Assembly: GCA_028713155.1 (NCBI GenBank)
Contig: JAQTPA010000015.1
Coordinates: 1 to 34,819 of the forward strand
DNA length: 34,819 nt
Direction of reading: 5' to 3'
From: Candidatus Omnitrophota bacterium
Lineage (GTDB): Bacteria > Omnitrophota > Gorgyraeia > Gygaellales > Profunditerraquicolaceae
The position numbers were made by a program, and so were the translations under genes. Below the pieces are notes generated by a model. The model had not been told where the DNA came from. It worked only from the letters and a program-made list of their open reading frames with translations, and ran no database searches. Below, in pieces: positions 12,588-19,570 of this stretch. Position 1 is the first letter of the stretch. Each line of letters starts with the position of its first letter.

Positions 12588-13052
12588 CTAGTCTTGTTTA
12601 AAGAGGGTTTTATCCTCTTGGGTTAATTCCCCGCAAAAAATCCACACCGAAATCTGCAGGCGTTCATCGAGTATTCTGATAATTTTTCCGCTTTGCTGGA
12701 TATGCTGGCCCTTATCAATATCTTTTACCTTATCTTTGTCTTTAAAAAGGAAGGCCAACTGGTAGGTAACATTATTTTTTGTTTTTTGCGGAATGGTGCT
12801 GACCTGGTAGTAAGTACTGCCCAGGTCGTTCGTCGTATCAAAGAAATCATATTCTCCCGCATTGCTGACTGTCCCGGCGCAAGAGATCTCCTTGCCCAGG
12901 CTGTCTTTTAAGACCTGCGTCTTTTGCAAATCCGTCGCCTTATAGAAATTATCAACCAACCCTTCAATATCCATTGCCGCAGCATAGGAAAGTCTGTTTA
13001 ATCCTAAAAGAACGGCTAAAGAAAACGCACTGACCAGCAATATTTTTTTCAT
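12588..13052 (-). CDS. Secreted OB-fold (tRNA_anti-like) protein of unknown function
   Basis: Signal peptide MKKILLVSAFSLAVLLGLNRLSYAAA. 'GKEISCAGTVSNAGEYDF...GQHIQQSGKIIRI' resembles secreted OB-fold domains. AGGGGAGGAA ribosome-binding site on the minus strand. Confidence 0.65.
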   Translation of the reverse strand: MKKILLVSAFSLAVLLGLNRLSYAAAMDIEGLVDNFYKATDLQKTQVLKDSLGKEISCAGTVSNAGEYDFFDTTNDLGSTYYQVSTIPQKTKNNVTYQLAFLFKDKDKVKDIDKGQHIQQSGKIIRILDERLQISVWIFCGELTQEDKTLFKQD

Positions 13053-13072: not shown

Positions 13073-13100
13073 ATTATACTTTTTTAAAAAAGTATTGCAA
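13073..13100 (-). promoter_or_regulatory. Divergent promoter for 12588..13052(-) with an 18-bp perfect palindrome in the spacer
   Basis: Minus strand TTGCAA (13095-13100), 16 nt spacer, TATAAT (13073-13078). TACTTTTTTAAAAAAGTA (13077-13094) is a perfect palindrome. Confidence 0.55.
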
Positions 13101-13132
13101 GTATTTTTGGGAGACTGATCCCAAGAAATAAC

Positions 13133-13161
13133 TTGACAAATATATGTAAAATACATATAAT
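13133..13161 (+). promoter_or_regulatory. Consensus sigma70 promoter
   Basis: TTGACA (13133-13138), exactly 17 nt, TATAAT (13156-13161). Confidence 0.9.
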
Positions 13162-13199
13162 TATATTCAAATGAATATCTTTATATGCAAAATACATAT
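13141..13199 (+). promoter_or_regulatory. Triple-palindrome operator array
   Basis: ATATGTA-AAA-TACATAT (13142-13158), ATATTCA-AA-TGAATAT (13163-13178), ATATGCA-AAA-TACATAT (13183-13199). Centres 13150, 13170.5 and 13191. Boxes 1 and 3 match at 16 of 17 positions. Confidence 0.8.
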
Positions 13200-13211
13200 T
13201 AGGAGCCGGGG

Positions 13212-14801
13212 ATGAAGAGTTTTTCGAAAAACACCCTTAGGCTCCTTAAAGTTTTTTACAGCCATCCGGAGCAGCAGTATTATATCCAGGAATTGGGGCG
13301 CCTCTTGAAAACCAAGCCCGGGGTTTTTCAGAGGACTCTTTATAACCTGCAGAAAGAAGGGGTTTTACAGAGCTATTACCGGGCGAATGCCAGGTTCTTC
13401 AGCCTCAATAAAAATTATCCTTTTTATAAAGAATTTAAAAGCATTGTCCAGAAGACAGCCAGGCTTGCGCTCAGCGCAGTTATTGCCGGCTTGTTCTTAC
13501 TGAACAGCTCGAGCGGATTTTGTGCGGAGAATAATCCAGAGACCCTGGTGCTTACTTCGCTGGAAGATGCGATTAAAATAGCGTTTAAAAATAATAAGGA
13601 TATCCGGATACAGGAATACGCGCTGAAAGTCGCTGACGCGGGGATACTGGATGCTAGAAGCGCGTTTTTGCCTAAGGTTGATTTCAATGCCGGTTATACG
13701 CGTAATGCCGCGGTGCTCAGCAGTGCCAGCAGCGGCGGTAAGAAAGACACCGGGGTATTTACCGGGTATAAAAATAATAATCTGATGGGCGTAAGCCTGA
13801 GCGATACTATTTACAACGGCGGAGCCAACATCGCCAGCCTAAGACAGGCTGAGCTGGCCCTAAGCGAACAAAGCCAGACCCTGCGGGCAATCAAGCTTAA
13901 TGTGGAGCTGGAAGCTAAGAGGCTTTATCACGGGCTCCTGCTGGCTTATGAGACAAAACGTATTGCCGAGGACCTCGTAGGGCAGGCAGAAAGCCATTAT
14001 GCAGAAGTAAAAAACAAATTTCAACAAGGGACTGCTTCCAGGTTTGATGTTTTACAGTCTAAGGTGCAGGTTTCACTCCTGGAGCCGCAGCTGATCAATG
14101 CGCAGAATGCCATAGACTTGATCATCGCGGAGATGAATAAACTCCTTGGTTTAAAGATAAGCGACAGGATAATCATCGAGGATAAATTGCTCTATGAACC
14201 CTTTGAGATAAAAGAAGGGGATTTCCTGAAAACCGCCTATCTGAATGAACCGGAGATGATCTTAAGGTCCCTGGGGATAGATATAAGCAAGTGGCAGATC
14301 AAATACGCCCGGGCAGGGTGGCTTCCGCAGCTGGAAACCAACGCCCAGTATTATTATCAGTCCAATAACCCGGGGAACATGTTTAACAGCAGGCATAATA
14401 ATTGGAATATAGGTTTTACCGTGCGCCTGGCGATATTTGACGGATTTTCAACCAAGGCGAAAGTGGACAGCGCCCGGGCCAAGCATATGCAGGCGGTTAT
14501 CAGTAAAGAGAATACGGCTGACCAGGTGGCTGTTGATGTAAGGCAGGCCTGCCTGGATTTGCAGCAGGCAGCCGCCGTAATAAAATCGCAGGAAGATAAT
14601 TTGGAGGATGCCAGGGAAGCTTTGCAGATATCTTATGTCCGTTATAATAACGGCGTAGGCATAAACCTGGATGTGTTGGATGCGCAGGTTTCTTTGGCTA
14701 ACGTAGAAAAGAACCTGGCTGAAAGTACCTACGATTATATTATGGCTAAGGCAAGATTGGACAGGATTATGGGTAATGGTTTTATAGAGGAGGAAAAATG
14801 A
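13212..14801 (+). CDS. Winged-helix DNA-binding domain fused to a signal sequence and a TolC-family outer-membrane efflux protein
   Basis: Residues 1-80 (KNTLRLLKVFYSHPEQQYYIQELGRLLKTKPGVFQRTLYNLQKEGVLQSYYRANARFFSLNKNYPFYKEFKSIV) look like a wHTH of the type found with nucleotidyltransferases. Residues 81-105 (KTARLALSAVIAGLFLLNSSSGFCA) look like a signal sequence. Residues 106-529 look like a TolC/OEP domain. AGGAG SD at 13201-13205. Confidence 0.85.
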   Translation: MKSFSKNTLRLLKVFYSHPEQQYYIQELGRLLKTKPGVFQRTLYNLQKEGVLQSYYRANARFFSLNKNYPFYKEFKSIVQKTARLALSAVIAGLFLLNSSSGFCAENNPETLVLTSLEDAIKIAFKNNKDIRIQEYALKVADAGILDARSAFLPKVDFNAGYTRNAAVLSSASSGGKKDTGVFTGYKNNNLMGVSLSDTIYNGGANIASLRQAELALSEQSQTLRAIKLNVELEAKRLYHGLLLAYETKRIAEDLVGQAESHYAEVKNKFQQGTASRFDVLQSKVQVSLLEPQLINAQNAIDLIIAEMNKLLGLKISDRIIIEDKLLYEPFEIKEGDFLKTAYLNEPEMILRSLGIDISKWQIKYARAGWLPQLETNAQYYYQSNNPGNMFNSRHNNWNIGFTVRLAIFDGFSTKAKVDSARAKHMQAVISKENTADQVAVDVRQACLDLQQAAAVIKSQEDNLEDAREALQISYVRYNNGVGINLDVLDAQVSLANVEKNLAESTYDYIMAKARLDRIMGNGFIEEEK

Positions 14802-15634
14802 AAAAGAAGAAAAAGTTTATAATCATAGCGTTGATTTTAGCCATTGCCGCCTACACGGCGGTTGTTTTTCTCTTAAAAGAGAAGCAGGCCAATAGTAAGA
14901 TTATCAAGGTTTCCGGGAACATTGAGGGGGATGACGTGCGCATATCTTTCAGGATAACCGGACAGATTATTGAGCTTTTGACGGATGAAGGCAAGGTCAT
15001 CAGAAAGGGGGATATTGTCGCCCGGCTCAATAAAGATGAACTGAGTAAAGTTCAGGCTGAGGCAGAAGCAGCGCTAAAATTGGCAGAATATCAGTATAAG
15101 CTGGATTATGATGATTACGTGAGGGCTGAAAACCTGCTTAAGGCAGGCGCGATTTCCGCTCAACAGCGCGATACGGCGAAAACCAGAATGAACACTGATT
15201 CGGCAAACATAAAACAATTACGCGCTTCCCTGGAGCTGGCTAATACAAAACTAGGCTGGGCAGATTTAGCCAGTCCGCTTGATGGTTACGTACTGGTAAA
15301 AAGCGCCCTTCCCGGTGAAGTCGTACAGCCGGGTTCCCCGGTTTTTACTGCCGTCAACCTGGATGACCTCTGGGTTACTGCTTATATAAATGAGACGGAT
15401 TTGGGCAAAGTGAAATTAGGGCAAAAGGCGTACGCGGAGACAGATACCTACCGCGGAAAGAAGTATAGCGGCCGGGTTTCCTTTATATCCAGCCAGACCG
15501 AGTTCACTCCTAAATACATCCAAACCAATGAAGAGAGAGTAAAGTACGTTTACCGGATCAAGGTGAGAGTTGACAATTCCAGTCTGGATTTAAAACCCGG
15601 GATGCCCGCGGACGCGTATATAATGATTGAATAA
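14798..15634 (+). CDS. HlyD-family periplasmic adaptor (YbhG/YhiI-like)
   Basis: N-terminal TM, biotinyl-lipoyl halves, full coiled-coil hairpin (LSKVQAEAEAAL...AKTRMNTDSANIKQLRASLELANTKLGWADLASPLDGYV). ATGA overlap with the TolC fusion. Confidence 0.92.
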   Translation: MKKKKKFIIIALILAIAAYTAVVFLLKEKQANSKIIKVSGNIEGDDVRISFRITGQIIELLTDEGKVIRKGDIVARLNKDELSKVQAEAEAALKLAEYQYKLDYDDYVRAENLLKAGAISAQQRDTAKTRMNTDSANIKQLRASLELANTKLGWADLASPLDGYVLVKSALPGEVVQPGSPVFTAVNLDDLWVTAYINETDLGKVKLGQKAYAETDTYRGKKYSGRVSFISSQTEFTPKYIQTNEERVKYVYRIKVRVDNSSLDLKPGMPADAYIMIE

Positions 15635-15643
15635 ATTCAGGCC

Positions 15644-16384
15644 ATGGTTACGATAAAAACGGAGAACCTGACCCGTAAATTCGGGGTGCTCACAGCCTTA
15701 GACCAGCTCAACCTTGAGGTCCAGGAGGGTGAGATCTTTGGCTTGGTCGGGCCGGATGGAGCAGGTAAAACTACAACTATGCGCCTTTTGACCGGGATCC
15801 TGGATCCTACGGAAGGCCAGGCTTGGACTTATAATAAACATACCGTAAAAGAAGCGGAAAGCCTCAAAGAGCATATTGCTTATATGTCTCAGCGTTTCGG
15901 GCTTTATGAAGAATTAAGCGTCCTGGAAAATATTAACTTTTACGCTGATGTTTACGGAGTGGCCAGAGATAAGCGCATAGAGGCTATTGAGCGCCTGCTG
16001 GGTTTTTCCGGACTTTTGCCCTTTAAGCAGCGTTTTGCCGGTAAGCTCTCCGGAGGGATGAAACAAAAACTAGGCTTAGCCTGCGCACTCATCCATACCC
16101 CGAAAGTCTTATTCCTGGATGAACCTACTAACGGCGTTGACCCGGTCTCCCGCAGGGACTTCTGGAATATACTCTATGATTTGCTCAAGGAAAAAGTCAC
16201 CATATTTTGTTCTACCTGCTATCTGGATGAGGCTGAACGTTGCCACCGCGTCGGCCTGATGCACAAGGGGAAGCTCCTGCGTTGCGATTCTCCCGGCAGG
16301 ATTAAGAAAGAATATAATACTAAAACTCTAGAGGAGGCATTTATCACGATAATCGGAGAATATGAAAGAAGCCAGCCCAAATAA
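15644..16384 (+). CDS. ABC transporter ATP-binding protein
   Basis: Walker A GPDGAGKTTT, signature LSGGMKQ, Walker B VLFLDEPTNGVDP. Confidence 0.93.
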   Translation: MVTIKTENLTRKFGVLTALDQLNLEVQEGEIFGLVGPDGAGKTTTMRLLTGILDPTEGQAWTYNKHTVKEAESLKEHIAYMSQRFGLYEELSVLENINFYADVYGVARDKRIEAIERLLGFSGLLPFKQRFAGKLSGGMKQKLGLACALIHTPKVLFLDEPTNGVDPVSRRDFWNILYDLLKEKVTIFCSTCYLDEAERCHRVGLMHKGKLLRCDSPGRIKKEYNTKTLEEAFITIIGEYERSQPK

Positions 16385-17327
16385 CATTGCCGTAAGTGTC
16401 CAAGGCCTAGAAAAGAAATTCGGGAATTTCACCGCGGTCAACCGGATCAATTTTGAAGTGAAGGCGGGTGAGATCTTTGGATTCTTAGGGCCGAATGGCG
16501 CGGGTAAATCCACGACCATCAGGATGCTCTGCGGGATTATCAGCCCTACCTCAGGCTCGGGAAAGGTGGGCGGTTTTGATATTATTAAAGAGCAGCATAA
16601 AATCAAGGAGCATATCGGTTATATGTCCCAGAAGTTTTCTCTTTATAATGACCTGACCGTAAAGGAGAATATTGATTTTTACAGCGGCATATATAAGATC
16701 CCGCAAAAGGATAAAAAAGAACGGCTGGAAACAACTGTGCGGACCGCGGGGTTAGAAGGGATGGAAGGGAATCTTACTGCGACGCTTGCCGGAGGCTGGA
16801 AGCAGCGCCTGGCCCTGGGGTGCGCGCTGATCCATAAGCCCAGGATTATCTTTCTTGATGAGCCGACCTCGGGCGTTGATCCGATAACCCGCGCCAATTT
16901 CTGGGGTATTATCAAAGAGTTAGCCGGCCAAGGTGTAACCGTTTTTGTTACTACGCATTATATGGATGAGGCGGAGAATTGCAACCGTATGGTTTTAATT
17001 TATCACGGCACGATCATCGCTGCGGGTACCCCGCAAGAGATGAAAACTGAAGTCATGAAGAATGAGGTCCTCGAGATTGCAATAGCTGATGCTCAGGGCT
17101 GGCTGGAGAGGGTCGTTAAAATAGAAGGCGTCAAGGAAGCCGCGCTTTTCGGAGCGGATATTCACGCTGTTGTTTATGACAACTCTAAGGCAATTCCGGC
17201 GATAAAGGAATTCCTGCAAAGCGCAGGCGCGGGGGAATTCAGCGTGAATAAAATTCTTCCCTCTCTGGAAGATGTATTCGTTTCCTCAATAGAAGAATAT
17301 GACCGCACAGAGTCTAAGAAGAATTAA
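16362..17327 (+). CDS. ABC transporter ATP-binding protein
   Basis: Walker A GPNGAGKSTT, signature LAGGWKQ, Walker B IIFLDEPTSGVDP. Overlaps the upstream ABC gene by 23 nt. Confidence 0.93.
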   Translation: MKEASPNNIAVSVQGLEKKFGNFTAVNRINFEVKAGEIFGFLGPNGAGKSTTIRMLCGIISPTSGSGKVGGFDIIKEQHKIKEHIGYMSQKFSLYNDLTVKENIDFYSGIYKIPQKDKKERLETTVRTAGLEGMEGNLTATLAGGWKQRLALGCALIHKPRIIFLDEPTSGVDPITRANFWGIIKELAGQGVTVFVTTHYMDEAENCNRMVLIYHGTIIAAGTPQEMKTEVMKNEVLEIAIADAQGWLERVVKIEGVKEAALFGADIHAVVYDNSKAIPAIKEFLQSAGAGEFSVNKILPSLEDVFVSSIEEYDRTESKKN

Positions 17328-18441
17328 ATCTATAGCCTGGAAGGAATTTATCCAGATTAAACGCGACCCGCGTTCTCTAGGGTTAGCTTTGGCAATTCCC
17401 ATATTCCTTCTGTTGATTTTTGGTTACGGGCTTAGCCTGGATATTGATAAAGTTCCGACCATTGTTTGGAATCAGGATGCTTCCAGCGAACTAAGCCGGG
17501 ATTTTATGCTCAATTTCAAAAATTCCAAATACTTTAAAATAATCGGCTATACGGATAACTACCGTCAGATCGAGCAGATGATCAATGCGGGAGAGGTTAT
17601 GATGGCCTTGATCATCCCCAAGGATTTCTCCCATTATCTTGAATCCGGTAAGACTGCGCCTCTGCAGCTCATCGTGGATGGAAGCGATGCGAATACCGCT
17701 ACCATTGCCATGGGCTATGTGCGGACAGTAGTTTCCAATTATAATGTGAATTTGTTGAGCAGTACGTTTGCCTCCCGGGGACTGCCAAGGCCTCAGACAG
17801 TGGATGCCCGCTCAAGGATTTGGTTTAATATGGGCCTGACCAGCACCTGGTTTATTGTTCCCGGGGTTATCGCGATGATTATTATGATTATTGCCAGTTT
17901 GCTTACTTCCATTTGTATCGCCCGCGAATGGGAGAGGGGGACGATGGAACAGTTGATCTCTACACCCGTAAAAGCCCCGGAGCTGGTCATCGGTAAATTC
18001 ATCCCCTATTTTACCATTGGGTTTTTTGACCTTATAGTGGGCGTGATCATGGCCAAGTTTTTGTTTGGCGTGCCTTTCCGGGGTAGTTATCTGTTGCTTT
18101 TTTTTCTAAGCTCGTTGTTTCTAACCGGCGCTCTAGCGCAGGGGATATTGATCTCTGTAGTCGCCAGGACGCAATTAATGGCCAGCCAGCTGGCTACCCT
18201 TACCACCATGCTGCCGACGGTGCTGCTCTCCGGGTTTATCTATCCGATCTTTAATATGCCTCAATTTATCCAGGTAGTCACTTATCTTATCCCGGCGCGC
18301 TATTACATTGTTGTCTTGAGGGAAATATTCTTGAAGGGCGGCACAATAACTGTCTTGTGGGATGAGACGCTTTTTCTCTTTTTATTTGCCCTGATAATGT
18401 TTGGCATTGCGGTAAAGAGATTCAAAAAAAAGGTGGCTTAG
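17299..18441 (+). CDS. ABC-2 type permease (YbhS/YhhJ-like)
   Basis: KEFIQIKRDPRSLGLALAIPIFLLLIFGYGLSLDI...; multiple TMs; typical drug-export ABC-2 permease. Confidence 0.92.
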   Translation: MTAQSLRRIKSIAWKEFIQIKRDPRSLGLALAIPIFLLLIFGYGLSLDIDKVPTIVWNQDASSELSRDFMLNFKNSKYFKIIGYTDNYRQIEQMINAGEVMMALIIPKDFSHYLESGKTAPLQLIVDGSDANTATIAMGYVRTVVSNYNVNLLSSTFASRGLPRPQTVDARSRIWFNMGLTSTWFIVPGVIAMIIMIIASLLTSICIAREWERGTMEQLISTPVKAPELVIGKFIPYFTIGFFDLIVGVIMAKFLFGVPFRGSYLLLFFLSSLFLTGALAQGILISVVARTQLMASQLATLTTMLPTVLLSGFIYPIFNMPQFIQVVTYLIPARYYIVVLREIFLKGGTITVLWDETLFLFLFALIMFGIAVKRFKKKVA

Positions 18442-18442
18442 G

Positions 18443-19570
18443 ATGTTTGAGCGCTCAAGGGCGATCCTGATAAAAGAATTTAAGCAAATCTTCCGCGACC
18501 CGCGGATGAGAACGGTTATCTTTATTACTCCGCTGATCCAGATACTTCTTTTTGGATACGCCGCGAATAAAGATATTAACTATGTTCCAACGGCTATTTT
18601 AGACCGGGATAATACCAAAGAGAGCCGTGAGCTTCTACGTAGGTTTACCTATTCCAAATATTTTATCCCTGAACATTATATCTTCAGCGAAAAGGAGCAA
18701 AATTTCATTCTGGATAAGGGTTTAGCCAGCGTGGTTATTCATATTGACCGCGGCTTTGGCCGTGACCTCAACGCCGGAAAGGACGCCTCCATCCAACTGG
18801 CCTTTGACGGCACAGATTCAAATACAGCGATGATCATTATGGGTTATGCTAATACCATTGTAAGTGACTACCAGTATGATTTATTAAAAGAGGCGCTGGA
18901 AGCAGGCGGTTTGACCGGCAGCGCTCCCAGGGTGGACCTAAGGGACCGCGCCTGGTTTAACGGCAATCTAATTTCCCGGAATTATTATCTTCCGGGTGTA
19001 GTTGCTATAATTGTGACGATGATGTCGCTTTTATTGACCTCCATGGCAATAGTAAAAGAAAAAGAGATCGGCACAATGGAGCAGTTAATTGTCAGCCCTT
19101 TGAAGCCGCTGGATCTTATTGTCGGCAAGCTCCTTCCGTTTGCGATAATCGCGCTGGTTCAGATTATCCTTATTACCATATTGGGCGTAGCCTGGTTTCA
19201 TATACCCTTAAGAGGGAATCTGTTTTTATTGCTCTTGTCTACCTGCGTATATTTATTTACCACTCTGGGAATAGGCTTGTTTATTTCTACGATATCCTCA
19301 ACCCAGCAGGAGGCGATGATGTCGGTTTTTCTTTTTTATATGCCGGCTATGCTTTTATCCGGGTTTGCTTATCCGATAGCCAATATGCCGCAATGGATCC
19401 AGTGGTTTACCCTGGTTAATCCTTTACGTTATTTTATGGTTATTGTGCGGAGTTTGTTTTTAAAAGGAGTTGGGGTAGAGGTTCTTTGGCCCCAGCTTAT
19501 ACCGCTGATGATCATGGGTATTTTAGTAATTACCTTTAGCGCTTTTCGTTTCCGCAAGAGCTTAGGGTGA
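18443..19570 (+). CDS. ABC-2 type permease (YbhR-like)
   Basis: IKEFKQIFRDPRMRTVIFITPLIQILLFGYAANKDI...; paralog of the upstream permease. Confidence 0.92.
   Translation: MFERSRAILIKEFKQIFRDPRMRTVIFITPLIQILLFGYAANKDINYVPTAILDRDNTKESRELLRRFTYSKYFIPEHYIFSEKEQNFILDKGLASVVIHIDRGFGRDLNAGKDASIQLAFDGTDSNTAMIIMGYANTIVSDYQYDLLKEALEAGGLTGSAPRVDLRDRAWFNGNLISRNYYLPGVVAIIVTMMSLLLTSMAIVKEKEIGTMEQLIVSPLKPLDLIVGKLLPFAIIALVQIILITILGVAWFHIPLRGNLFLLLLSTCVYLFTTLGIGLFISTISSTQQEAMMSVFLFYMPAMLLSGFAYPIANMPQWIQWFTLVNPLRYFMVIVRSLFLKGVGVEVLWPQLIPLMIMGILVITFSAFRFRKSLG

Follow-up and report, generated by a model that had tools for sequence, protein, structure and literature searches.

Several described systems resemble parts of the locus presented here. 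Autoregulated repressors of the ArsR and MarR types, such as HlyU and MepR, belong to the same fold class as its winged-helix (wHTH) domain and likewise have an operator on their own promoter beside an efflux operon, but the domain in the window (by which we mean the whole 34.8-kb stretch of DNA that was analysed) has no curated family match, is fused to an exported channel, and has no known ligand. ArgR, also a winged-helix protein, binds paired ARG boxes, i.e. palindromes on the promoter whose centres are about 21 bp apart; however, both the protein family and the site are unrelated to those found here, and ArgR usually has two boxes, as opposed to two to five. ToxR and CadC carry an N-terminal cytoplasmic winged helix ahead of a single membrane-crossing segment, an arrangement that the window protein may share, although their wHTH is of another family and the exported part is here an outer-membrane channel, which should be released by cleavage. 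Tripartite ABC efflux systems with TolC combine, as does this operon, TolC, HlyD, ABC ATPases and ABC-2 permeases, but their regulators are normally separate proteins.

The wHTH domain itself has its nearest kin in PDC-M05, a candidate defence system in PADLOC: a module of a nucleotidyltransferase (M05A; NTase, MNT) and a HEPN protein that is typical of toxin-antitoxin systems and whose antiviral role is unconfirmed (PMC12988326); the MNT component has been read as the antitoxin and HEPN as the toxin (PMC3710099). The two have homologous wHTH domains with a shared recognition helix, and each carries this box array at its own promoter. In PDC-M05, however, the wHTH is fused to the nucleotidyltransferase and followed by a HEPN gene, while in the window its partner is TolC, with HlyD and ABC genes coming next: Pfam reveals no nucleotidyltransferase domain in the window protein, and the gene directly downstream encodes HlyD rather than HEPN. 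A literature search of open-licence papers found neither a wHTH-TolC fusion nor an operator of this wHTH family.

The fusion protein and its operon

The efflux operon comprises the following features:

13212..13454, plus strand: winged-helix domain, residues 1-81 of the fusion (AlphaFold model, fold comparison, invariant residues)
13464..13526, plus strand: signal-peptide-like segment, hydrophobic core at residues 85-97 (core present in all 25 orthologs)
13527..14801, plus strand: TolC-type outer membrane channel part of the fusion (PF02321 OEP, E=6.4e-69)
14798..15634, plus strand: HlyD-type membrane fusion protein (PF16576, PF13437)
15644..16384, plus strand: ABC transporter ATPase (PF00005)
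16362..17327, plus strand: second ABC transporter ATPase (PF00005)
17299..18441, plus strand: ABC-2 type permease (PF12698)
18443..19570, plus strand: second ABC-2 type permease (PF12698)

The open reading frame 13212-14801 encodes a single continuous protein, in which the winged helix, the hydrophobic segment and the TolC channel follow one another and OEP is the sole Pfam domain (231.9 bits against a cut-off of 22). Because the wHTH has no sequence match in Pfam, NCBIfam or PDB above the cut-off, it was placed by modelling and fold comparison. The AlphaFold model (mean pLDDT 87) has the element order H-E-H-H-E-E-H, and its nearest folds according to Foldseek are HlyU (ArsR) and MepR (MarR), with TM values of about 0.6-0.7; the recognition helix is KPGVFQR (residues 35-41). 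Fusions at 50-93% identity are present in about 25 other genomes of the same family. Among 24 sequences compared, 26 columns of the wHTH region do not vary, with K35-P36-G37 and F39-Q40 in the recognition helix among them; this recurrence and invariance argue that the fusion is not an accident of assembly. The segment behind the wHTH resembles a cleavable signal peptide and is a candidate membrane segment, whose conserved core is predicted to serve as an export signal ahead of the channel, with cleavage probable near residues 104-105. No separate conserved start of TolC was found in the 25 orthologs, in which alternative in-frame starts are scattered and almost none has a Shine-Dalgarno sequence; TolC therefore seems to be made solely with the wHTH in front. 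On the opposite side of the promoter region, a divergent gene (12588-13052, minus strand) encodes a small protein that is probably secreted and has no Pfam match. A promoter-like sequence of its own, TTGCAA-16-TATAAT (13100-13073, minus strand), lies outside the array, and several relatives have similar genes flanking theirs.

Upstream of the fusion gene lie the following promoter elements and palindromic boxes:

13133..13138, plus strand: -35 hexamer TTGACA (from the sequence; kept in nearly all relatives)
13142..13158, no strand: candidate operator box 1, ATATGTA-AAA-TACATAT, overlapping the spacer and the TAT of the -10 hexamer
13156..13161, plus strand: -10 hexamer TATAAT (from the sequence; 17-bp spacer from the -35 hexamer)
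13163..13178, no strand: candidate operator box 2, the 16-bp variant ATATTCA-AA-TGAATAT, spanning the inferred start
near 13168, plus strand: inferred transcription start
13183..13199, no strand: candidate operator box 3, ATATGCA-AAA-TACATAT, in the leader, 5' of the ribosome-binding site
13201..13205, plus strand: ribosome-binding site AGGAG, 6 bp before the ATG at 13212

These palindromes had been described in an earlier note on this DNA, and re-reading of the sequence reproduces their centres (13150, 13170.5 and 13191) and the 16/17 identity of boxes 1 and 3 exactly; boxes 2 and 3 indeed cover the inferred start and the leader, respectively. Box 1 had been placed exactly between the two hexamers: it does lie over the spacer, 3 bp past TTGACA, but it also overlaps the TAT of TATAAT. 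The middle box, for which a different core had been noted, is shorter than the other two, but it is not a different operator, as relatives show a TATATGC...ATATA box at this position, often one base shorter than their outer boxes of the same form.

Distribution of the array among wHTH proteins

The earlier note had also proposed a search for the boxes upstream of orthologous wHTH-TolC genes. A sequence model of the array detects them before 27/27 tested fused TolC genes (the window's own included), all from Omnitrophota or unclassified MAGs, and before 0/32 TolC relatives without the wHTH. Every fusion examined has an upstream promoter-like -35 element and a box array with the consensus TTATATGCAAAATGCATATAA, and orthologs with as little as about 50% protein identity still keep the array. 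To count boxes we used a half-site scan in place of a gapless box matrix, which missed the 16-bp middle boxes; the scan itself fails to pick up certain degenerate middle boxes, as well as both TTATGC boxes of one NTase gene (L094, see below). In 29 fusions it reports two to five boxes, spaced by 20, 20.5 or 21 bp between centres or by a multiple of this pitch (where a middle box falls below the half-site threshold), with a single exception of 37 bp, while shuffled upstream regions contain no pair of boxes at 20-21 bp. Candidatus Velamenicoccus archaeovorus (L196), for instance, has three boxes at a spacing of 20.0 bp. On the TolC tree the wHTH changed, by gain or loss, between three times (counting well-supported branches) and seven times, and the array accompanies the wHTH in each of three independent pairs, although three are too few for significance. 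In two genomes (L107 in G089 and L108 in G037) the wHTH and the array persist, but TolC itself is decayed or truncated and no other operon genes are visible behind it. Weak matches to the array model in two genomes without a fusion (G007 and G061, E about 0.001-0.002) are box-like sites without a recognisable promoter array and were discounted as chance occurrences.

The closest relatives that share only the wHTH are wHTH-NTase proteins, 53-59% identical over the domain, from Omnitrophota and from MAGs labelled Deltaproteobacteria, Aminicenantes, Clostridia, and others. Proteins of this type match PDC-M05A of PADLOC (down to 3.8e-54), carry Polbeta/NTP_transf_2 domains, and in 4/4 cases tested are followed directly by a HEPN gene. 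The KPGxFQ helix is encoded by all nine of the closest genes that we examined, and all nine promoters match the array model; the half-site scan shows two boxes 21 bp apart in seven of them and one box in two. In the window's own family we surveyed 26 wHTH-NTase genes. One (L094; helix HPGIFQR, 42% identical to the window domain) has two TTATGC...GCATAA boxes 21 bp apart, and the rest mostly have other promoter dyads, which group by recognition helix:

helix DPGNLSREL: promoter dyad TTTACATCA/TGATGTAAA
helix SAGSIRREL: promoter dyad TTGAGTAC/GTACTCAA
helix DPKNTETKL: promoter dyad TTATGGTAA/TTACCATAA
helix SVGTLHREL: promoter dyad GTTCTC/GAGAAC
helix DKRNL: promoter dyad GTGTAA/TTACAC

The array model matches none of the 22 tested wHTH-NTase paralogs with other recognition helices, and the wHTH domains that go with the TATGC box all fall into a single clade (support 100/96). 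The wHTH-NTase genes L095, L096 and L111-L133 represent several recognition-helix classes, most with a promoter palindrome of their own, and at one locus (L205) two neighbouring genes differ both in recognition helix and in operator.

The best argument for the wHTH itself as the reader of the boxes is that the array tracks the wHTH subfamily and not TolC. The same box accompanies the NTase-fused wHTH and is absent from TolC relatives without one, which favours, at the level of comparative sequence analysis, the binder proposed in the earlier note. Some other, trans-encoded regulator might bind the array instead, the fused wHTH being a relic or serving another purpose, and the persistence of arrays in G037 and G089 despite the decayed TolC operon could be read in this way, though the wHTH is still there. 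We regard such a regulator as improbable, given that the array follows the wHTH subfamily across both partner domains and through several lineages, that it is missing where the wHTH is missing, and that the recognition helix of the fused wHTH is invariant. The simplest history, as far as the sequences suggest, would be that the wHTH and operator of a wHTH-NTase gene became joined to a TolC gene, a direction that is not read from the tree.

Some fusion genomes contain additional arrays. In 10 of about 30 fusion genomes there is another array, 300 bp or more from the gene, compared with 0/67 others at E<1e-3; in the window's genome a search with the array model found none. Seven of the auxiliary arrays (L100-L106, in G026, G010, G029, G086, G066, G049 and G036, respectively), usually of two boxes, lie about 0.3-1.2 kb from the main array between mostly convergent gene ends and are possibly looping operators. 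Two unlinked arrays (L097, 1453-1515 in G006, and L098, 215-256 in G017) are located upstream of hydrogenase beta/gamma-like genes, which hints at regulation of further genes in trans by the wHTH. A two-box array (L099, 1285-1326 in G040) lies just past the ABC operon, before a phosphofructokinase-like gene. Auxiliary arrays may thus represent looping operators or members of a regulon.

Predicted autorepression and its possible link to export

We propose, with a probability of roughly 85%, that 13133-13199 is a sigma70 promoter under a phased operator for the fusion's own wHTH, which would repress the efflux operon including its own gene. Dimers of the wHTH would bind boxes of about TATATGC-N5-GCATATA at a pitch of 20-21 bp, cover the -10 hexamer and the start site, and thereby repress the wHTH-TolC/HlyD/ABC operon. 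Autorepression is the best reading because the boxes overlie the -10 hexamer, the start and the leader, and because a near-consensus promoter needs no activator. The spacing of 16-17 bp boxes at 20-21 bp suggests that neighbouring dimers lie on one face of the helix and bind cooperatively. The comparative evidence supports autoregulation by the fusion's wHTH, as the earlier note had suggested, which would repress and would act as part of the intact fusion. Several points count against the autorepression reading: a repressor linked to the membrane or to a preprotein is unusual, the sequences are related by descent with only three well-supported independent changes of the wHTH, and some wHTH-NTase relatives have only one clear box.

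The wHTH could also bind the array but mainly activate, or change sign with a ligand, as many ArsR- and MarR-like regulators do answer to ligands and some auxiliary arrays, e.g. in G006, lie upstream of a separate promoter. We give this slightly less credence still than a trans-encoded regulator, since a protein bound over the -10 hexamer, start and leader of a near-consensus promoter should block the polymerase. We rejected the reading of the palindromes as hairpins of the leader RNA (an attenuator or a control of the ribosome site), although boxes 2 and 3 are probably transcribed, as the letters of the arms show no covariation (81.3% paired versus 81.6% in shuffles) and box 1 lies upstream of the transcription start. 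Chance in A+T-rich intergenic DNA, raised as a concern in the earlier note, is equally negligible: although the array segment is 72% A+T, triplets (7-bp arms with at most one mismatch, loop of 2-3, pitch of 20-21) arise in only 2/20000 dinucleotide shuffles of 13080-13211 and in 15/20000 random 70-mers at 85% A+T, no second one occurs anywhere in the window, and the array is kept in orthologs and in other lineages. Across the window's genome, covered by pattern and model searches, the box pattern is found in two places in the array and at one site with two mismatches, and the array model matches the window locus only.

Under autorepression, the fusion to an exported protein would have a further consequence. 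Signal peptidase would free the channel, with the wHTH staying in the inner membrane, so that each channel made would yield one repressor domain, probably left there on its signal peptide. Tentatively, the amount of repressor at the array might then serve as a count of delivered channels, and repression would respond directly to any block in export or processing; we consider this export-counted feedback possible but rather less likely than not to hold.

Winged-helix repressors that regulate themselves through tandem operators are commonplace. A repressor of this kind within the leader of an outer-membrane channel is unusual, and it would couple repressor quantity to how many channels are made. 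Among the wHTH-NTase paralogs, recognition helices and promoter palindromes differ together and form a natural recognition code, by which DNA specificity becomes directly testable in a little-studied family resembling toxin-antitoxin systems. The locus also offers a regulatory system for study in Omnitrophota, including Candidatus Velamenicoccus archaeovorus, for which a complete genome is available. If the export-counted feedback is true, its regulatory head and operator would be common to the TolC fusion and the wHTH-MNT/HEPN modules.
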